Shown here in pieces: positions 4,284 through 21,595 of a stretch of DNA of 22,359 nt (position 1 is its first letter; every line of letters begins with the position of its first letter). Under the pieces are notes generated by a model. That model was not told the origin of the DNA and did no database searches. It saw only the letters and a list, made by a program, of their open reading frames with translations. The position numbers and the translations under genes are program-made. The stretch is from the IMG/VR virus record IMGVR_UViG_3300005613_000440, positions 1 through 22,359 of that record; one strand, written 5' to 3'. This DNA is from a virus.

Positions 4284-5363
4284 ATGGAAAAACAATTTCA
4301 CGCATTTGGTAGAAGAATAGATAGTGTTAATCGCTTTGAAGAAAAGGTGGTTAGAAACCAAGATTGGGTATCTTGGGGAAGCGAGAATAATTTTGCTGAA
4401 ACACTATATGATTACATAGATTATAACCCCACACATAACGCATGTATCAACGCAAAGGTAAGAAATGTCTTAGGTCAAGGGTTCGTTGATGGTGATAGAT
4501 TGGTGAATGGAACACAGACCTTAAATGAGTTCTTTATGGAATATGCCACAGAGTATATAACCACAGGAAACGCCTTTATTGAGTCAGTATGGTCTGCTGA
4601 TAGGACGGAGGGTTTAAATGGAATATACACCCTTCCCTCGTCGTCTGTGAGGGTTCAGAAGAAGGATACGATAGATGAAGAACAGAAGGTTTATTATTAT
4701 TGTGAGGACTGGAAAGATTATAGAACAAAAAGTATTATTGAGTTCAGTAAGTTAGACCCAAACAATCAGAACAACAGACAAGTATATCATATCAAGAATT
4801 ACGCACCAGGATACAACTACTATGGTTCTCCTGACTATATGTCTGTTATCAACGATATTAGATTGGCACATAACATAACATTATTCCACTTATCAAACAT
4901 ATTGAATGGGGGAACACCGGGTTTATGGGTCAATTTCCCAAATGGTATTCCTGATAGCGACAACGAACAAAGAACGATGTTGGCTAAAATTGAAGAAAGA
5001 TTTTCAGGAGCAGAAGGAGCGGGTAAGACGATGGTTTCATTTAGTGATGGAGCAGAACTCGCACCAACAATTACACAAATCCCCTCAAATACACACGATG
5101 GTTATTATTCAGAAATATTTGAATTAACCCAAAGACAGATTTTATCGGGACACAAAATCACTTCAGGTCTTTTGATTGGATTGAATAACGGAGGTGGTCT
5201 TGGTTCAAACGCAGATGAGATTAACCAATCATTCCAAGTGTTCCTCAATACAACAATAAAACCATTACAAATGGAATTGGTAGAACAAATGAAACCCCTT
5301 ATTAAGTTGTTGTATCCAAACGAACAAATAAACTTGAGTATTATACAAAATCAAATACTATGA
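4284..5363 (+). CDS. Phage portal protein
   Basis: A 359-aa portal of the HK97-like family: the dodecameric ring at the capsid vertex through which DNA passes and to which the terminase docks. Visible family features are the N-terminal YNPTHNACINAKVRNVLGQG (residues about 47-70), the central GTPGLWVNFPNGIPDSD stretch, the GAEGAGKTMVSFSDG region, and a C-terminal helical part with LLIGLNNGGGLGSNADEI. It is slightly short for the family (commonly about 400 aa or more). GAGKT here is not a P-loop, since the family has no ATPase activity. An ATATTTAT element precedes it, and its stop overlaps the start of the next gene (ATGA). It lies far from the terminase genes (9910-12297), on the other side of a reverse-strand block. 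Confidence 0.8.
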   Translation: MEKQFHAFGRRIDSVNRFEEKVVRNQDWVSWGSENNFAETLYDYIDYNPTHNACINAKVRNVLGQGFVDGDRLVNGTQTLNEFFMEYATEYITTGNAFIESVWSADRTEGLNGIYTLPSSSVRVQKKDTIDEEQKVYYYCEDWKDYRTKSIIEFSKLDPNNQNNRQVYHIKNYAPGYNYYGSPDYMSVINDIRLAHNITLFHLSNILNGGTPGLWVNFPNGIPDSDNEQRTMLAKIEERFSGAEGAGKTMVSFSDGAELAPTITQIPSNTHDGYYSEIFELTQRQILSGHKITSGLLIGLNNGGGLGSNADEINQSFQVFLNTTIKPLQMELVEQMKPLIKLLYPNEQINLSIIQNQIL

Positions 5364-10486: not shown

Positions 10487-11074
10487 ATGGAACATAAAGA
10501 ATGGATTGTATATCAACATCGTAGAAAAGATACAGGTGAAATCTTTTATATTGGTATTGGAAAAAAGTATCGTCCTTATACCACGAATAATAGAAATAAA
10601 ATGTGGATAAATGTTGTTAATAAAACAGATTATGATATTGAAATTGTTAATAGTTTTGATAGAAGAATTGATGCTGAAAAACTTGAAATTAAACTTATCA
10701 AATTATATGGTAGAAGAGATTTAGGACTTGGCACACTAGTTAATATGACTGATGGGGGAGATGGTTGTGAAGGTAGAGTATGGACTAAAGAACAACTAAT
10801 TTCCAAAGGAAAAAAAATTAGAGGTGAAAAAAATGGTATGTTTGGTAGAAAATGGAGTGAAGATGAAATTAAAATATTCAGTAAAAAATCACAAGGGACA
10901 AATAATAAAAACTCAAAACTAACAGAAGAAGATGTTATATGGATTAGAAAAAATGGTGTAAAAGGTAATAATCAATATGATAAAGGTAATTTAAATGATA
11001 TTGCTAAAATGTTTAATATAAGTCGTAATATGGTTAATAGAATTATTAATAGAAAAAGTTGGACGCACATATAA
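10487..11074 (+). CDS. GIY-YIG homing endonuclease
   Basis: A 195-aa free-standing homing nuclease. Residues about 6-30 carry the GIY-YIG core in the variant form IVYQHRR...IFYIGIGK, followed by the conserved Arg region (KKYRPY). The family's Glu is likely in KLEIKLIKLYG, and VNMTDGGDG closes the catalytic domain (residues about 60-95). Residues about 105-145 resemble a NUMOD3 DNA-binding repeat (GEKNGMFGRKWSEDEIKIFS). Residues about 150-195 form a helix-turn-helix (DIAKMFNISRNMVNRIINRK) ending SWTHI. It lies alone between two terminators with its own host-type promoter, a self-contained mobile cassette between the two terminase genes. It is somewhat more AT-rich than its neighbours by eye. 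Confidence 0.85.
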   Translation: MEHKEWIVYQHRRKDTGEIFYIGIGKKYRPYTTNNRNKMWINVVNKTDYDIEIVNSFDRRIDAEKLEIKLIKLYGRRDLGLGTLVNMTDGGDGCEGRVWTKEQLISKGKKIRGEKNGMFGRKWSEDEIKIFSKKSQGTNNKNSKLTEEDVIWIRKNGVKGNNQYDKGNLNDIAKMFNISRNMVNRIINRKSWTHI

Positions 11075-11139: not shown

Positions 11140-12297
11140 ATGGCAAAGATACAAACTACTAAAGTATTTGAGGAGATTGAAAACAACATAGATAACTACA
11201 GAATGATTAGTTGTCGCGGGGGAAGTAGGTCTGGTAAGACATATAACATTTGTATATGGATTGTAGTGTATTGTTTAAGGAATACGGGGAAAACAATAAC
11301 CATAGTAAGGAAGAACTACCCATCATTAAAAGGCTCCGTTATGAGGGACTTTATTGAGGTATTAGATAAGTTCGGGAAGTATAATCCAAATGACTTACAT
11401 AAACAGGAAATGTATTATGAACTAAACGGAAATACAATAGAGTTTCTTAACGCAGATGACGAACAAAAATTACGAGGCAGACGGAGAAATCTACTATGGA
11501 TAAACGAGAGTAATGAACTACATAGAGATGAATACACCCAACTAGCAATAAGAACCACAGACAAGATTATATTGGATTATAACCCAAGTGATATAGATAG
11601 TTGGATATATGAAGAAGAGGAGAAGGATACTTGTTATTGGTTCAAAACGACATTTTTAGATAATCCATTTTTATCACAAGAAATCATAGATGAAATTAAA
11701 GGATTGAAAGATAAAGATGAGAACTTATACAGAGTATTCACATTAGGGGAAAGGGGAATAGCAAGGAGTTTAGTATTCAACAAATATACAGAAGAAACTG
11801 AAATACCACCACAAGCAAAGTTATTGGGATATGGTATGGACTTCGGTTTTGTTGATAGTTCAGTATTGGTTCAGGTTTATAAAATGGGGGAACACCTATA
11901 CTTCAAAGAACTAATCTATGAGAGTAATTTAACCATACCTGATTTGATATATCGTATGGAGCAATTAAGTATGGATAGAACAGATACAATATGGGCTGAT
12001 AGTTCCCAACCAGCAGCGATAGAACAAATTAGAAGGGCGGGGTTTAATATCAAACCAGTTAAGAAGACCACAATACAATATGGTTTAGACCTCCTTAAAA
12101 GACACTATATACATATTGTATCTTCCCCAAATATAGTAAAAGAGTTCAACTCTTACAAATATAAAACAGATAAAGATGGGAAGATATTGGGTGTCCCTGA
12201 AGATAAACACAACCATAGTATAGATAGTATCCGGTATTGTGTGGAGATGGAGTTAGACCCAAAGAAAATAAACAGAGGAAAATATGCTATAATATGA
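11140..12297 (+). CDS. terL: Terminase large subunit
   Basis: A 385-aa packaging ATPase/nuclease of the PBSX-like Terminase_3 type. The Walker A motif GGSRSGKT is at residues 27-34. The Walker B-like strand NLLWINE is at 117-123, with Glu123 as catalytic carboxylate and Asn replacing the usual Asp. The C-terminal RNase H-like nuclease shows the expected acidic triad: Asp234 (GYGMDFGF), Asp287 (TIWADSS) and Asp362 (HNHSIDSIRY). It moves DNA through the portal and cuts concatemers. The length is complete for this family, and no frameshift was seen. It is separated from the small subunit by the GIY-YIG cassette and overlaps the HNH nuclease start by 4 nt (ATGA). Confidence 0.93.
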   Translation: MAKIQTTKVFEEIENNIDNYRMISCRGGSRSGKTYNICIWIVVYCLRNTGKTITIVRKNYPSLKGSVMRDFIEVLDKFGKYNPNDLHKQEMYYELNGNTIEFLNADDEQKLRGRRRNLLWINESNELHRDEYTQLAIRTTDKIILDYNPSDIDSWIYEEEEKDTCYWFKTTFLDNPFLSQEIIDEIKGLKDKDENLYRVFTLGERGIARSLVFNKYTEETEIPPQAKLLGYGMDFGFVDSSVLVQVYKMGEHLYFKELIYESNLTIPDLIYRMEQLSMDRTDTIWADSSQPAAIEQIRRAGFNIKPVKKTTIQYGLDLLKRHYIHIVSSPNIVKEFNSYKYKTDKDGKILGVPEDKHNHSIDSIRYCVEMELDPKKINRGKYAII

Positions 12298-12713
12298 CTT
12301 ATTACGCAGATAAAGAAGGGAATGTATATAACGAGAACGGAAGACAAATGAAGTTCTGGATTAACCCATCGGGGTATTATTATTTCAAGATGTATTATGA
12401 TGGAGCAGCACACGCATCATCAGTCCATAGGTTCGTATATGAATACTTCAACGAACCCATACCAAAAGGATTAACGATAGACCATATCAACGAAGATAAA
12501 CTTGATAATAGATTGGAGAACCTACGACTAACGACCAATGCGTTTAATTGTAGAAGGAGGGAATACAACAAACTCAATATGGAATTAGCAGAAGAGATAA
12601 GAGACTTGTATTCAAAAAATATTTATAGTTATTCACAACTGGCAGCGATGTTTGATGTTGCAAAGACAACAATATCAAATTGTATAAAAGGAAAAACTTG
12701 GAGTAAGATATGA
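12294..12713 (+). CDS. HNH homing endonuclease
   Basis: A 139-aa nuclease of the HNH_3 type. The core is VHRFVYEYF (residues about 43-51), IPKGLTIDHINEDKLDNRLE (residues about 56-75), then NLRLTT. His in VHR, Asp-His in IDHIN and Asn in DNRLENL form the catalytic metal site. Residues about 98-139 are a helix-turn-helix module (YSQLAAMFDVAKTTISNCIK) ending TWSKI, like the end of the GIY-YIG protein. I start it at 12294 rather than the in-frame Met at 12237, because 12294 gives the 4-nt ATGA overlap with terL and the longer version would lie inside terL. Its stop overlaps the next start the same way. It was inserted without breaking the operon. Confidence 0.85.
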   Translation: MTYYADKEGNVYNENGRQMKFWINPSGYYYFKMYYDGAAHASSVHRFVYEYFNEPIPKGLTIDHINEDKLDNRLENLRLTTNAFNCRRREYNKLNMELAEEIRDLYSKNIYSYSQLAAMFDVAKTTISNCIKGKTWSKI

Positions 12714-13378
12714 GTGAAATTAAACTAACAATAGACGGACAGAAATATACCATAAATCCACGATTAACTCTTGGTGAGTATATGTCCCTACAAAAGATAG
12801 ATAAGGTTAATCTACAGACCCCCAAATTACTTGAGATGATTACCGGTATTCCTGAAAAGGAAATCAAAAAGATTGATAGTAATAGAACCCTTTATATCGT
12901 CAATAAGATTATGAAGGAAAAGATGGATAATAAAGACGAACCTATTAAAGCAACATTTGAGTTTAATGGAGTATTGTATGGTCTTGAAACAGATTTAACA
13001 AAACTTAACTTCGGGGGTTGGATAGATTTGGAAACCTTTATCAGTATGGGGTTCAAAGAAAACTTAAATAAGATTGTGGCTTTATATTACAGACCAATAA
13101 AAGCACAGATTGGTAAGACCTATGTATTAGAACCTTATGATACAGAAGAATGTTTAAAAAGAGCAGAAGAGTTTTTGGAACTCCCCTTTGATATTGTATC
13201 AGGTGCATCAGTTTTTTTTTTAACATTTACAAAGAAATATACAGAAAATACGCTACATATTTTGAAACGGAAGAACAAGAAAACGAGGAGGAGAATGAAG
13301 GCAGTAGAATATATGAAGAAGATACTACCGAAATGGTTGGTTGGGAAACTACCGCAAGATTTTACCAAAATCAGTTGA
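12710..13378 (+). CDS. Tail assembly chaperone-like protein (short, zero-frame form)
   Basis: A 222-aa protein (starts MSEIKLTIDGQKYTINPRLT). The body is helical/beta mixed, with no enzymatic motif. Zero-frame residues 172-222 form a very basic tail (KRKNKKTRRRMK). It lies upstream of tail terminator, tail and tape-measure genes and contains a T10 run with a canonical -1 heptamer (T TTT TTA at 13216-13222). From there the -1 frame stays open to 13530. That is the classic G/GT organisation of siphovirus tail chaperones, which wrap the tape-measure protein during tail assembly. The chaperone call rests on this frameshift layout and position, not on a recognised domain. A simple homopolymer sequencing error would instead make it a single 273-aa gene. 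Confidence 0.6.
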   Translation: MSEIKLTIDGQKYTINPRLTLGEYMSLQKIDKVNLQTPKLLEMITGIPEKEIKKIDSNRTLYIVNKIMKEKMDNKDEPIKATFEFNGVLYGLETDLTKLNFGGWIDLETFISMGFKENLNKIVALYYRPIKAQIGKTYVLEPYDTEECLKRAEEFLELPFDIVSGASVFFLTFTKKYTENTLHILKRKNKKTRRRMKAVEYMKKILPKWLVGKLPQDFTKIS

Positions 13379-13530
13379 TGATACTATCAAATGAAGACAT
13401 AACCAAGATAGATGAGATATTAAGTTATTCAACTTCTCGTTGTTTTAACTATTTATCGTGGTATAAGGACAAGCGAACAAGAGAGATGAACGCAATAAAG
13501 AAATCAAGACAAAAACAAATTAGAAGATGA
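13192..13530 (+). CDS. -1 frame extension of the chaperone (fusion via frameshift)
   Basis: In the -1 frame relative to 12710-13378, sequence is open from after a TGA at 13189-13191 to the stop at 13528-13530. Read from the slip point (13222) it adds 102 residues: an acidic stretch (TEEQENEEENEGSRIYEED), then MVGWETTARFY, LSNEDITKIDEILSYS and LNYLSW-like residues, and a basic end (KKSRQKQIRR). The fused product would be 273 aa. An ATG at 13333 could also start a free 65-aa protein. The overlap with the zero frame (13192-13378) exactly brackets the T10 run. The stop overlaps the next ATG region at 13527. The acidic extension versus the basic zero-frame tail would give two forms with opposite charge. 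Confidence 0.65.
   Translation, partial: YCIRCISFFFNIYKEIYRKYATYFETEEQENEEENEGSRIYEEDTTEMVGWETTARFYQNQLMILSNEDITKIDEILSYSTSRCFNYLSWYKDKRTREMNAIKKSRQKQIRR
13211..13222 (+). promoter_or_regulatory. T10 slippery site with T TTT TTA heptamer
   Basis: Ten consecutive T (13212-13221) followed by A. In zero-frame phase the codons are GTT TTT TTT TTA, so the canonical X XXY YYZ heptamer occupies 13216-13222. Runs this long also promote RNA polymerase slippage. No strong downstream hairpin was seen within about 40 nt. Confidence 0.6.
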
Positions 13531-14018
13531 GTATATACCCTGAAATGACTTTTAATCGTGTTATAGATGAACTATTTAAGTTTGCGAAATATCACAAACA
13601 GATTAACAACTATGGGTTTGGAAACCTTGTTGATTTTTCAAGAAGAAACGAAGAAAGTGATGATGTTAAATACCCCCTTATGTTTATAACCCCACAGAAT
13701 ATAACATATAACAAAACCATCACACAATATGAAATCAGTATTGTCTTTGGTGATATATTACAGGAGGATTATGATGATGGTAAGAATGTAATATCCAATA
13801 TGAGTATGATTGCCAAGGATTTAATCTCATACATTACCAACCCCCCTGCTAACCCCAATTCCGTTGATTTAACGGACTTGTTTGATATAACTTTACCTGT
13901 TAATGCCATACCCTTCCAAGAAAGATTTAATGACTATATCGGGGGTGTTTCATTAGACATAACCTTCAGTGTTAGAGATAGTATAAACACTTGTTCTGAT
14001 ATGGTAGTGATTGAGTAA
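13527..14018 (+). CDS. Putative tail terminator/completion protein
   Basis: A 163-aa protein. Features remembered from Bacteroidota phage tail-region proteins are the YPLMFITPQNITYNKTITQY segment (residues about 50-69), SIVFGDILQEDYDDG, the helix KNVISNMSMIAKDLISYI, and the late PFQERFNDYIGGVSLDITFS followed by a C-terminal Cys. The alpha/beta pattern and the place between the chaperone and an HK97 gp10-like gene fit a tail terminator, the ring that caps the tail tube and joins the head. It overlaps genes on both sides (ATGA at 13527, TAATG at 14016-14020). The call is positional plus pattern, with no diagnostic motif. Confidence 0.5.
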   Translation: MSIYPEMTFNRVIDELFKFAKYHKQINNYGFGNLVDFSRRNEESDDVKYPLMFITPQNITYNKTITQYEISIVFGDILQEDYDDGKNVISNMSMIAKDLISYITNPPANPNSVDLTDLFDITLPVNAIPFQERFNDYIGGVSLDITFSVRDSINTCSDMVVIE

Positions 14019-14557
14019 TGGAGGAGATGTTAGAAATACTCGTTAAACAACTCAAGGTTGAACTGGCAAAGAACTATCAACCAAGAGGATATAACATTCA
14101 AAGAAACAGACCTGGTGTTCCCAAGACGATAGGACAATATCCAAAGAACAACACAAAGAGATTGAGTGATAGTATTGGTTATGAGATAAGAGAGGTTGAT
14201 GGTGAAGAGATGGGACTTATTGTAATGGAAGATTATTATGAGTTTGTAGATAGAGGTAGAAAACCTGGTGGTAGTGGTTCAGGGACAACATTTAGAAGAG
14301 CCTTGGATACTTGGGTTAGACAGAAGATAGGAACATTCCCCGGTCTTTCATTTGAGACAACATCATTCCTCGTTAGAAGAAGTGTATGGATGAAAGGTAT
14401 AGGTGGAATAAACTTTATAAACAACGCAATAGATAATATAATAGATGAGATGGTAGATAAAGGTGAAGACGAATTTGCAGATAGATTTGAAGAGTTTGTA
14501 GATGAAAAACTATTGGTATTATCAAAAACATCAAATGATATAACATATAATACATAA
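14018..14557 (+). CDS. HK97 gp10-like head-tail/tail completion protein
   Basis: A 179-aa protein. The key feature is DYYEFVDRGRKPGGSGSG (residues about 69-86), which matches the DYaxYVxxGRkPG motif of HK97 gp10-like and virion-morphogenesis proteins. RALDTWVRQKIGT and the aromatic/basic SFLVRRSVWMKGIGGINFI follow, also in family order. An acidic helical C-terminus follows (DEMVDKGEDEFADRFEEFVD). These proteins complete the head-tail joint or tail top. It is coupled to both neighbours by TAATG overlaps. The role is firm at family level; its exact place in the virion is inferred. Confidence 0.7.
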   Translation: MEEMLEILVKQLKVELAKNYQPRGYNIQRNRPGVPKTIGQYPKNNTKRLSDSIGYEIREVDGEEMGLIVMEDYYEFVDRGRKPGGSGSGTTFRRALDTWVRQKIGTFPGLSFETTSFLVRRSVWMKGIGGINFINNAIDNIIDEMVDKGEDEFADRFEEFVDEKLLVLSKTSNDITYNT

Positions 14558-16287
14558 TGGGACAGATTAGTATAATAAAAGATATAGAAGGAACACAACC
14601 CACATTATCACCTGATAATTATTTCGTATTATCTGCGGATACAAACACAGAATTTAATTTTAGATATGTATATGATTTATATGTCTTTAACCAAAGGGTA
14701 TTCACAGGTAAATTAACCCCCAATCCTGAAGGGGTGGGTATAGTTCCAGTTGGAGAAATTATACACGATTTCGCAAAGAACGCACCTGTGGCATATATAG
14801 CAAATCTAACAGGTGGAACAAATAATTTTATACACCAAACAGAAAACTTTTCAACACCTCAACAAGATGAGGTTATCAACTGGTGGTGTAATTTTGGTGA
14901 AGAACATTCAACAACAATATCATCAACACCAACACCATATACTGGTCTTGGAACTCAAATAGGAAACCCCGCATATCCATCAGGACTACAAAGAAGTTTC
15001 TTGGGGACTATGGGTAGAAACATATTCTCAAACTTACAGAAATTAGATACAGACAAATTCTTTATGAATGGATATGATGGGTTATTCCCCTCAACAGATA
15101 ATCTGTTCTTAACGAACTCACCAAGAATAAGAGATATAGGTTCTGATGAGTATTTTACCTTATCTGCCTTAAACTATATCTTACCAAGTGAAGCAAACCC
15201 TAATGGGGACTATTCGTATGTCTATGACGCTGAATATAATTTCTACGATAACGATGGAACATTAATATCAGGTTATACCATAGCAAACACAAAAGAATAT
15301 GGTGGTGGTCCCAGAGAAGCGTGTAATGAGGATTATGAAAATTATGTATTACCGACAGGTGAGACACAAAGTTATTGGAATGTTATTCACATAGCAGCGG
15401 GAACAAAAAACATATATATACCTAACGGAACAAAGTATTATACATTACAATTAAGGGGCTTACCATCAACCCCTCCCCCGACGCCTACTCCCACTACCTT
15501 ACCACCTGGTTTTACATCGTGGAGATTAAGGAGTTGTTGCGAACCTGAAAACTTTATCATCGCTGGTATTGAAAGTGGTTATACAGGGTCTGTAAGAGTT
15601 TATAACAATAATTGTTATTATGCTGACGAACAAGTTGCGGGAGCATCATTTACAATATCAGGTGGTGCTACTCACGCTAATTGTAGTAGTTGTATTGATG
15701 AATACGCTTGTAGAAGTATTCCATCAAAAGGGGACAATACCCCCACTCCTACGCCGACCTTTACACCCACATCACCTAATAGTGGTGGAGCAAGAATTAT
15801 TTGTCCTGAATGGAACTACTCAAGTGAGATATTCCAATTTAATATTATAGATGATTGTGATAACCCTTATGATACAAACCAGTTCTTGTTTAAAAACAGA
15901 TATGGAACTTGGGACTACTTCACATTCCGTAAAAAGAAGATAGAACAGATTGATATACAAAGAGAAAGGTATAATCAATTTGATATTACCTATGGGTCAG
16001 CAAATCCTGTTAAAGAACCATTTAATCGTGGTCTAACAGATTATTCAACACAGATAAGAGAGGTTCATACATACAATACAGGATTTATCAACGAACCTGA
16101 TATGTATTATCTTGAGGAGTTATTCACATCAAATGATGTGTATATGATATTAGATAACGGAGTTCCATTTCCGATAAACATATTATCTAACTCATTTGAG
16201 AAGAAGACGAAGGGTAGAGGAAAAGAAATAACAAACATAACGATTGAATTTGAGTTTGCTAATAACATTAAACTATTGGATAAGTAA
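14557..16287 (+). CDS. Tail protein with Pro/Thr-flanked Cys-rich insertion
   Basis: A 576-aa tail-region protein. N-terminal residues 1-300 and C-terminal residues about 412-576 look like one beta-rich structural protein. The C-terminal part has FLFKNRYGTWDYFTFRKKK, of a type seen in Bacteroidota phage tail proteins. Between them, residues about 304-319 (STPPPTPTPTTLPPG) and 393-410 (NTPTPTPTFTPTS) are Pro/Thr linkers. They frame a domain of about 75 residues with eight or more cysteines or paired cysteines (RSCCEPE, NNNCYY, NCSSC, YACRS). That domain resembles in style the C-terminal module of the 1188-2114 protein. It looks like a loop-displayed domain inserted into a tube or baseplate protein. 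Starts on the upstream stop. Confidence 0.6.
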   Translation: MGQISIIKDIEGTQPTLSPDNYFVLSADTNTEFNFRYVYDLYVFNQRVFTGKLTPNPEGVGIVPVGEIIHDFAKNAPVAYIANLTGGTNNFIHQTENFSTPQQDEVINWWCNFGEEHSTTISSTPTPYTGLGTQIGNPAYPSGLQRSFLGTMGRNIFSNLQKLDTDKFFMNGYDGLFPSTDNLFLTNSPRIRDIGSDEYFTLSALNYILPSEANPNGDYSYVYDAEYNFYDNDGTLISGYTIANTKEYGGGPREACNEDYENYVLPTGETQSYWNVIHIAAGTKNIYIPNGTKYYTLQLRGLPSTPPPTPTPTTLPPGFTSWRLRSCCEPENFIIAGIESGYTGSVRVYNNNCYYADEQVAGASFTISGGATHANCSSCIDEYACRSIPSKGDNTPTPTPTFTPTSPNSGGARIICPEWNYSSEIFQFNIIDDCDNPYDTNQFLFKNRYGTWDYFTFRKKKIEQIDIQRERYNQFDITYGSANPVKEPFNRGLTDYSTQIREVHTYNTGFINEPDMYYLEELFTSNDVYMILDNGVPFPINILSNSFEKKTKGRGKEITNITIEFEFANNIKLLDK

Positions 16288-18598: not shown

Positions 18599-21595
18599 AT
18601 GGCAAGAACAATCGCAATTGAATTAGAAGTTAATGGTGTTAAAGAAAGTGTTAAAACCATAGGTGAGTTAGAAACCGCTATTGAAAGTTTAACAGAAGAA
18701 CTTAAAAACACCGATATAGGTAGTGAAAAGTTTAACCAATTAACAAATGAGTTAAACAAAGCGAAGAGTGAATTAAAAACATTTGAAGCCAGTTTTGAGG
18801 GATTAGACCCCCAACAAAAAACGCAGGCTTATGTCGCTTTCGCAGAGAGTGTCTCATCAGGTATATTGTTGGCACAGGAAGCGTTAAGGTCATTTGGTGT
18901 TGAAAATGAAAATGTTAATAGTGCGGTTGAAGCATCAACAAAGGCCATCAACTTCGCACTTCAGGCTCGTATTCTTTTAGAGGGGGCTTTGGAGGCAAGA
19001 GTTCTTGCCACATCACTCGCACAAAAAGCGTTAAATACCTCTGTTGTCGCAGGGAATAGAGCACTTAAGGTTTTATTTACAACCATAGCAGCAAACCCAT
19101 TAGGTGCGGTTCTTGCCGTTGTTGGATTACTGGTTACCGCATTTATTTCTTTGAGTGATGCGACTGAAGAAAATACAGAAGAAACAGATAAGAACAACGA
19201 AGCACTTGAAAGACAGAACCAATTAAGGGAGGCACAGGCTCGTATCATACAACAAGCGGAAGATGAGATTAGAAGGGCAAGAGAAGAGGGAACACAAGCG
19301 TTAAGAGAACAAGCGGATATATTGGAACAAAGACAAGACATATTAGATGACGAGGTTGATAAATTGAGAGATTTGGCAAGAGAAACTTTGGTTCAAATTA
19401 ACCAACAAAAGATATTAAGAGGTAGTACTGAAGATTTGGAAAAAAGATATGAAGATATAATAAAACAATTAGAAACAGCAACTGAAGAAGCGGGGGCTAA
19501 TGCGAAGGTATTGGAAAGTTTAAGAAAAGAGTTGGAGAATATAGACAAACAAATATCTCAAAATGAATTGGATAGGTTCAAAGGTGATTTGGAAGGAGCA
19601 AGAAAGGAATTAGATAAGTTAAACAGAAGTTTATTGGATTTTGGTGAAACCCCTACACCAAAGGTTATAGAAGACCTTGAAGAATTGGTAAGACAACAAA
19701 TTAGATTACAAGAGATTACAGAAGAAAGTAGAAAAACTCTTGGTGATGTGTTTAATGATTATACTAATAATGTAATAACTGCGTTAAGGTCTAATGATAG
19801 TTTCGGTGAAAGTTATGAAACCACAAGAAAACAATTAACAGACGCATTTAGAACTGGTGATATTGAAACTTTCCAAGAAGCGATAGATAAAGTTTATGAT
19901 ACATATTTTGACGAGAATAGTAATTTTAATGACGAACAAAGAAGAACCATAACTCAATTATTATCCAATTATAGAGTGGCGTTCCAACAATTACAACAAT
20001 TCGGTATAGATAGTGGTGAAGAGTTTGATACTATTGTATCCCCCTTATTAAATAAATTAGCAGAAAAATTAAGATTGGAAGGTTCTATTAAGTTTGAAAG
20101 AACTGATACTGAAAAGGCAGGTGAAGAAGCAGGTGAAGACGCTGCCAGTTCATATTTTGATGCTTTTGAAAAATATAAAACACGAACAGGTGTTGAATTA
20201 TCACCCATAGTTGATGAAACTAATTTAGAAAATGTATTAAAGAGATTTGAATTATTCCGTGAAAAAATAGAAGAAATTAAACAAAGTGAATTATCATTAG
20301 AAGATGTTTTATCAGGTAGTGAAGAGTTTTATAACTTAAGAAACGAACTAATAAACACTTTTAGTGAAGAGTTTTTAAAAAGTGCTGATATACAAAAATT
20401 GGCTGAAGAAGATAGAACGGCAGCACAAGAAGAAGCAATTAAAAGAGCAAGAGAAACGGCTGATGGTGTTATAAATATAATTACAAATACAGCGATTGCT
20501 GAAGATGCAATTAGGGGTGTATTTAATGAAGTTGAAGATTTACAAAATCAAATAAAAGATAATACACAAAATGTAGATACATTCTTGGGTCTTATTATAG
20601 AGAACTTTGATGAGATAGGAAAACAAATAAAATTAGAGGAGTTATTAGACCCTTCAGCAGCATTAGAAGACAACTTCCAACAGATAGTATCATTCTTTGA
20701 AAGTATCGGTGTTGATAGTGTTAATATATTATTTAACACTGAAGAAGAAAAACTGGCAATCGTTAATTTATTCCTAAAGAAAAGACAAGAGTTATTAGAG
20801 GAAAATGCGGAGAAGGAACAAGAGATACAAGAAAAAACATTAGATGATACATTAAATAATTACCAAGAGATAGTTAATGGACTTAACCAACTTACATTAT
20901 CTTTGGGTGAGAAATCACAATTACAAATAGAACGAATTGAAGCAAGGCGAGAAGAAAGTTTGGCTAATGTGGTTGGTGATACAGAAGAGGCTGAAGCATT
21001 AAGAACAGAAATCACAGAGGATGCCAATAGAGAAATTGTTGAGGTTGAGAGAAAGGCAAGATTAAGGGAATTACAATTTACGAAGATACAAGGTGTCGCT
21101 GATTTAGCACAAGCACTTATCAACGCACAGAAATTACCCCCTCCGTTTAATGTTATTCAATCAGGTATTGTTGCAACTGCTGGAGCGGTTCAACTTGCCG
21201 TTATTGAAAGTCAAATACAGGATTTACAAGGAGCACAAGGATTTGCTACTGGTGGTTTTGTATCAGGAGAGGGAACGGGGACAAGTGATAGTATCCCCGC
21301 ATTCTTAAGTAATGGTGAGTTTGTTGTTAATGCAAAAGCAACAAAACAATATTTACCTTTATTGGAGAAAATAAACAACGAAGAACAACAATTTAATAAG
21401 TTCGCAAATGGGGGTTTTGTGTTGGATGGATTAAATATTCCATCATCAAATATACAGAATATTTTTGATGATAGTAGAATTATAGAAGAATTGAGAAAAA
21501 CAAGACAAGAACCACTACGAGCCTATGTCTTTGAAAAGGATATTACCGACGCACAACAGATTGAGAAGCGATTACAGGAACTTTCCAAATTGTGA
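18599..21595 (+). CDS. Tail tape-measure protein
   Basis: A 998-aa protein, the longest in the window. It is mostly coiled coil (residues about 20-70, 200-340 and 640-860, rich in Glu, Lys, Gln and Leu) with a hydrophobic segment at about 152-183 (NPLGAVLAVVGLLVTAFISL). The C-terminus carries GFATGGFVSGEGTGTSDSIP and AFLSNGEFVVNAKATKQYLP (residues about 880-920), the typical Bacteroidota-phage tape-measure ending. It sets tail length and probably helps DNA entry through the membrane segment. By the usual scale of about 1.5 angstrom per residue it would specify a tail near 150 nm. That figure assumes a standard siphovirus tail. An ATATTTAT element precedes it, and the next element follows its stop. 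Confidence 0.88.
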   Translation: MARTIAIELEVNGVKESVKTIGELETAIESLTEELKNTDIGSEKFNQLTNELNKAKSELKTFEASFEGLDPQQKTQAYVAFAESVSSGILLAQEALRSFGVENENVNSAVEASTKAINFALQARILLEGALEARVLATSLAQKALNTSVVAGNRALKVLFTTIAANPLGAVLAVVGLLVTAFISLSDATEENTEETDKNNEALERQNQLREAQARIIQQAEDEIRRAREEGTQALREQADILEQRQDILDDEVDKLRDLARETLVQINQQKILRGSTEDLEKRYEDIIKQLETATEEAGANAKVLESLRKELENIDKQISQNELDRFKGDLEGARKELDKLNRSLLDFGETPTPKVIEDLEELVRQQIRLQEITEESRKTLGDVFNDYTNNVITALRSNDSFGESYETTRKQLTDAFRTGDIETFQEAIDKVYDTYFDENSNFNDEQRRTITQLLSNYRVAFQQLQQFGIDSGEEFDTIVSPLLNKLAEKLRLEGSIKFERTDTEKAGEEAGEDAASSYFDAFEKYKTRTGVELSPIVDETNLENVLKRFELFREKIEEIKQSELSLEDVLSGSEEFYNLRNELINTFSEEFLKSADIQKLAEEDRTAAQEEAIKRARETADGVINIITNTAIAEDAIRGVFNEVEDLQNQIKDNTQNVDTFLGLIIENFDEIGKQIKLEELLDPSAALEDNFQQIVSFFESIGVDSVNILFNTEEEKLAIVNLFLKKRQELLEENAEKEQEIQEKTLDDTLNNYQEIVNGLNQLTLSLGEKSQLQIERIEARREESLANVVGDTEEAEALRTEITEDANREIVEVERKARLRELQFTKIQGVADLAQALINAQKLPPPFNVIQSGIVATAGAVQLAVIESQIQDLQGAQGFATGGFVSGEGTGTSDSIPAFLSNGEFVVNAKATKQYLPLLEKINNEEQQFNKFANGGFVLDGLNIPSSNIQNIFDDSRIIEELRKTRQEPLRAYVFEKDITDAQQIEKRLQELSKL

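Follow-up and report, generated by a model that had tools for sequence, protein, structure and literature searches.

The window analysed here, a complete virus record of 22,359 bases, carries at 12710–13378 a gene encoding a protein of 222 residues, the N-terminal domain of which comprises residues 1–171. This protein would be the short, G-like form discussed below. Inside the gene lies a run of ten T's (13212–13221), read in the 0 frame as GTT TTT TTT TTA AC, and two heptamers were found to be in phase when read off the sequence and their phase computed: T TTT TTT at 13213–13219 and T TTT TTA at 13216–13222. The -1 frame is open from stop to stop between 13192 and 13530. After a -1 slip, reading would resume at AAC (13222) and end at 13530, giving a fusion protein of 273 residues whose C-terminal (T-like) extension runs from 13222 onward. 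The two frames overlap from 13223 to 13378, where the tail of the 0-frame protein is basic and the -1 extension acidic. Both the overlapping frames and the phase of T TTT TTA were thus as given in the preliminary description, which had proposed a programmed -1 frameshift at this place. It had also stated that 9 or 11 T's would yield one continuous gene; this is correct for 11 T's (and for 8), but 9 T's give GTT TTT TTT TAA, an immediate stop.

The gene for the terminase large subunit (11140–12297; Pfam Terminase_3, 3.8e-22; PHROG 2) is the upstream neighbour, and between it and the recoded gene lies an HNH endonuclease gene (12315–12713, with a putative start; Pfam HNH_3, 8e-15). The start of the downstream neighbour (13527–14018, 163 residues, function not assigned) overlaps the -1-frame stop, and the tape measure protein is encoded at 18599–21595 (PHROG 25241, 2.5e-22) in the same tail region, all of these features being on the plus strand, like the recoded gene itself. 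A position upstream of tail genes had been taken to fit the G/GT system of siphoviruses. The gene does lie in the tail region and shares a cluster with the tape measure gene; it follows the terminase and HNH genes, however, and is approximately 5.2 kb upstream of the tape measure gene. Proximity to the terminase gene is common among the homologues: it was found no more than 700 bases upstream in 123 of the 135 loci with enough upstream sequence.

Several further features of the window were noted. The HNH gene is likely a homing-type insertion; in the Nonlabens phage P12024L, the terminase gene and the chaperone gene abut. The product of 10487–11074, just before the terminase gene, gives the impression of a GIY-YIG-type endonuclease, although Pfam gave no match at E 0.01. 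The portal gene (4284–5363) is located about 6 kb upstream of the terminase gene, with small genes on both strands between them, which is an unusual order. Three proteins, encoded at 1188–2114, 2125–2808, and 14557–16287, have low-complexity T/S/P-rich linkers in common, and they are perhaps exchangeable receptor-binding or decoration parts. A repeat protein encoded at 29–1012 exceeds the cut-off of the LbR ice-binding beta-roll model, which it matches at 1.8e-7; it is possibly a tail fibre with a beta-roll.

Homologues of the locus were collected with several queries. The scan of viral contigs revealed 7 close relatives, and a profile gave 12, those 7 included. The L021 protein as query matched 368 relatives among the viral contigs, of which the best 80 were retained, whereas the P12024L protein gave 63 and the scan of genome contigs 9. 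Duplicate fetches of one place (L008, L010–L017, L021–L028, and L184) were counted once. Because ranking for the set of 80 used the 0-frame protein, a fused gene might have scored less well and been lost from it; the sets of 12, 63, and 9 were retained whole, and there was no fused-gene exception among them. A search of 299 genomes gave a match in three, one of which was already known. The only named phage relatives were the Nonlabens phages P12024L and P12024S, and the cultured relative was Galbibacter pacificus CAA-3, represented by a genome contig. The host of the phage group is likely a member of Bacteroidota, since six of the nine genome contigs carry Bacteroidota names (two Bacteroidetes bins, two contigs from one Winogradskyella bin, Flavobacteriaceae, and Galbibacter pacificus CAA-3); the other three are metagenome bins named otherwise.

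The results showed that a run of at least nine T's is present at the same place in all 166 homologous loci (T9 in 87, T10 in 73, and T12 in 6), and no shorter run was found at the site in any of them. Many of these loci are near-identical, and a better count is 44 clusters, which share less than 85% nucleotide identity across the 230 bases surrounding the site, three loci too close to a contig end having been left out of the clustering. The run lengths differ by substitutions at the borders of the run, without frame-breaking indels. The site, the direction of the shift, and both frames are kept down to approximately 25–30% protein identity. A homologue with a single unbroken frame and no slippery site, which the preliminary description had named as a finding against recoding, did not occur among the homologues examined; none was a single-frame gene. 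The description of the site as T TTT TTA proved too specific: the heptamer is in phase in the window, but the letter after the run varies among the homologues, and the constant part is the stretch of at least nine T's, which occurs in all three codon phases.

For a single contig, an error in the assembly of the homopolymer is a legitimate concern, as the preliminary description had pointed out, and a decaying gene could look similar. We found no support for either explanation. Run lengths are compatible with the frame in all 166 loci, most of which come from separate assemblies, and the contig of a cultured strain, with a stated 413-fold coverage, is among these loci. These independent assemblies exclude a homopolymer error for the homologous loci, and the probability that error or decay accounts for the arrangement is negligible.

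The -1 frame was open in all eight near loci (the window counted among them), all 80 members of the largest set (up to three of which reach a contig end), all 63 of the more distant set (four of which reach a contig end), and all nine genome contigs. Every set checked has a conserved -1-frame domain, FR.R..Y..LF ... WGWY.SIY.LA.GDI..., of which the window has a more divergent copy. In the set of 80, the run starts at gene offset 472 or 474. All 71 distinct genes of this set have TTT at codons 159 and 160, while a third of the Phe codons in these genes are TTC, and the +1 frame meets a stop 0–4 codons from the run in 71 of 71. In the loci resembling P12024L (L109–L171), the sequence from the run through ATCATTTA is identical in most, despite protein identities of 25–50%; dual coding may explain this identical stretch, and it could also be a longer signal.

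It might be argued that the locus consists of two separate genes, the downstream one being started by coupled reinitiation where the 0-frame stop overlaps an ATG. Such an overlap is present in the window, where TGATG at 13376–13380 joins the 0-frame stop to a -1-frame ATG, and in P12024L, where the corresponding sequence is TAATG; GenBank annotates the two frames of P12024L as separate hypothetical proteins, gp40 and gp41. The overlap of stop and ATG occurs, however, in just 8 of the 44 clusters, and coupled reinitiation was rejected on this ground. In addition, the conservation of the -1 frame sets in immediately behind the run (FR.R..Y..LF), well upstream of the ATG, and the constant T run would be left unexplained. 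We regard two separate genes as a very improbable arrangement. That both frames, the site, and the direction of the shift are all conserved strongly supports programmed -1 recoding.

To examine selection, nucleotide diversity at the three codon positions of the 0 frame was determined for 17 representatives drawn from 65 complete, ungapped genes of the set of 80 loci; the other 15 loci were duplicates, 216-residue variants, or incomplete. Diversity at positions 1, 2, and 3 was 0.21, 0.14, and 0.45 before the run, and 0.06, 0.36, and 0.20 after the 0-frame stop, the latter being the signature of coding in the -1 frame. In the overlap, the values were 0.15, 0.20, and 0.25. The family of the window, represented by four haplotypes, showed a similar pattern, with 0.19, 0.09, and 0.37 before the run, 0.11, 0.44, and 0.17 after the stop, and 0.19, 0.23, and 0.18 in the overlap. 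When the -1 frame was reshuffled synonymously, the 0 frame stayed open in 2.7% of the reshuffles (range 0.8–8.6%) in the large set; the same test had low power for the window family together with its nearest neighbours, where 17–100% stayed open. The overlap thus bears a dual-coding signature, and both frames are under selection in it.

The contrast between the acidic extension and the basic 0-frame tail, which had been cited as evidence for recoding, was rejected as support. The overlap has a charge of +13 in the 0 frame and -9 in the -1 frame, and synonymous reshuffling of the -1 frame gives an expected 0-frame charge of 13.1 (S.D. 1.3), equal to that observed, because GAA and GAG shifted by one base become codons of the AAG and AGG type. 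The contrast is a matter of codon geometry, and it reappears however the -1 frame is rewritten with synonymous codons.

We also investigated whether the product is a tail-assembly chaperone. The recoded gene gave no match to a Pfam family; the sole PHROG family matched by the 0-frame protein was PHROG 32199 (function unknown; 3.2e-5), and the P12024L extension matched PHROG 38404. The tail protein gpE of phage P2 matches PHROG 166 at 4e-7, and the same profile was matched weakly by 8 of 11 diverse members of the family studied here (E up to 1, best 0.004) and by 2 of 10 proteins of a second set, the protein of the window not being among these. The matches of gpE and of the homologues cover about the same part of the profile. 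Searching PHROG 166 over four whole records gave no match in them, and the link is therefore visible only at the level of single proteins. Direct comparison with lambda G, P2 gpE, T4 gp26, and T4 gp51 gave nothing significant, and T4 gp26 and gp51 were set aside as relatives. The first structure model, built from 8 sequences (pLDDT 64), had no match in the PDB. The second, built from 48 sequences (pLDDT 77), matched mostly unnamed phage proteins and a P12024S protein in BFVD, together with two low-ranking entries, at E 0.14 and 0.24, that carry the name tail assembly chaperone. Against the PDB, this model had a best E of 2.3 with Foldseek and a best Z of 2.9 with VIA-align, with no chaperone among the matches listed, and a sequence search of the PDB found nothing.

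The possibility exists that the recoding is real and that the protein has another function. There was no significant match to any family of known function, and the gene lies near the terminase gene and does not adjoin the tape measure gene. Against such a reading stand the combination of a short form with a -1 extension, the location in the tail region, the weak PHROG 166 link to P2 gpE, and the two BFVD chaperone matches at E 0.14 and 0.24; another function is, in our opinion, rather unlikely. The chaperone role claimed earlier is likely from the gene architecture, the neighbourhood, and the PHROG 166 profile that is weakly matched in common with P2 gpE, this last bridge being a hint.

Close models for such an arrangement are two known phage systems, lambda G/GT and P2 E/E+E'. 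In lambda, a single tail-region gene yields a short and a -1-extended form, as the gene studied here would, and the neighbourhood of both genes includes the tape measure gene. The slippery site in lambda is a heptamer, G GGA AAG, whereas here it is a run of at least nine T's; the lambda gene directly precedes the tape measure gene, whereas ours follows the terminase gene with the HNH gene between; and no profile match to lambda G was found. P2 gpE has an annotated -1 frameshift at T TTT TTG and resembles our case in shifting by -1 on T's and in its similarity, weak in our proteins, to the same stretch of PHROG 166. The P2 run, however, has six T's compared with at least nine in all 166 loci, beyond the site the 0 frame continues for about 20 nt in P2 and for 156 nt in the window, and direct comparison with gpE was not significant. 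The Nonlabens P12024L and P12024S genes gp40/gp41 and equivalents are true homologues with the same site (T9) and the same -1 extension, and differ in that their records annotate two hypothetical proteins with no recoding noted. Recoding of this type is already known from other phages, and the present homologues are not annotated as such in the records examined. In the parts of the open-licence PMC literature that were available, no report of recoding in these phages was recognised, which does not imply its absence from print.

A -1 slip of the ribosome is one route to the fusion; slippage of RNA polymerase is the other, as the preliminary description had recognised for the T10 run. If one U were added in the run of 9–12 U's, normal translation would lead into exactly the -1 frame, and loss of one U would give a form ending at or just after the run. 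Ribosomal stimulators, such as a downstream RNA structure or an upstream SD-like sequence, are usual and not obligatory. Among 42 representatives, no conserved pseudoknot-free structure was found in the 80 nt downstream (mean z -0.34, control stretch -0.15), and SD-like motifs upstream occurred in only four, so that no conserved stimulator was seen. An in-phase heptamer of the X XXY YYZ type is present, but any run of nine T's holds one in every phase. Since the letter after the run varies and only the length of at least nine T's is constant, polymerase slippage remains nearly as good an explanation as ribosomal slippage.

Other observations also point to the polymerase. The run never falls below nine in 166 loci while its phase and flanking letters vary. 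Selection against A/T runs in the coding sequence of bacteria commonly begins once they reach nine (PMC1088944), the E. coli enzyme slips more on T than on A runs and inserts more than it deletes (PMC6260861), and on nine A's or T's the bacterial enzyme, with its RNA-DNA hybrid of 9–10 bp, slips efficiently (PMC5009743). In the remaining coding regions of the cluster representatives, A/T runs of at least nine numbered 2 compared with 21.6 expected when proteins and codon use were kept. This deficit was mostly in A runs (2 compared with 18.9 expected), there being 0 T runs compared with approximately 2. The features by which transcriptional slippage is known in sequence are therefore all present: a run of at least nine, its avoidance elsewhere (mainly of A runs), and a conserved extension in the shifted frame. 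Moreover, codon 161 was TTT in 22 of the 22 genes in which codon 158 does not end in T, and in 5 of the remaining 49.

The same facts can be obtained with a ribosome. A rule requiring seven T's in phase predicts the association between codons 158 and 161, which was accordingly rejected as a test between polymerase and ribosome. The avoidance of long A/T runs is not decisive either, because T runs are avoided already at lengths of 6–7, partly by phase (in-phase T TTT TTN was seen 30 times and expected 72.3 times). A run of nine T's always contains an in-phase T TTT TTT, and the amino acids required in the two frames can explain the other T's, so the sequence cannot decide. The tail-chaperone cases described in PMC5009743 are ribosomal. 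We give -1 slippage of the ribosome on the U run roughly an even chance of being the dominant route, somewhat likelier than polymerase slippage, which as the main route is a tenable but more tentative proposal; both may act.

Thermus dnaX, the Shigella mxiE and spa genes, and IS elements resemble the present case in having a run of about nine A's or T's and a conserved shifted-frame extension; unlike them, the window also has an in-phase ribosomal heptamer, and its slippage is proposed from the sequence. Apparent transcriptional slippage has been mentioned for a tape measure and a topoisomerase gene of an Acinetobacter prophage (PMC6095929). The subject of PMC2853527 is a methyltransferase.

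Taken together, the results point to a probable tail chaperone gene whose recoding is real and functional. The best explanation, in which we have considerable confidence, is a two-product, frame-recoded tail-assembly chaperone gene of a probable Bacteroidota phage. Conservation of the site and of the direction, as well as selection on both frames, is evident from the sequences; that the shift occurs, its level, and the chaperone role we infer. Most copies would be read straight through to 13378, producing the short form of 222 residues, and a minority would change frame by -1 at the T run, producing the fusion of 273 residues with its C-terminal domain from the -1 frame. According to PMC5009743, the tape measure protein of lambda is bound by G and the tube protein is recruited through the T part, the ratio being near 30:1. 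By analogy, a coat of numerous short copies and a few long ones would form on the tape measure protein and bring in the tail-tube subunits.

It is possible, though we hold this with less than even confidence, that the ratio of short to long chaperone is set in transcription, by stuttering of the polymerase on a selected run of at least nine T's, and not by the ribosome. If true, this would be programmed polymerase slippage in the tail assembly of tailed phages, in a large unannotated group of Bacteroidota phages. The T9, T10, and T12 runs in three codon phases form a natural series for separating ribosomal from polymerase slippage. The analysis also gives a probable function to a widespread protein pair (PHROG 32199 and PHROG 38404) that annotation has split into hypothetical genes. 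If it is the polymerase that slips, transcription would fix the stoichiometry of a virus assembly chaperone.
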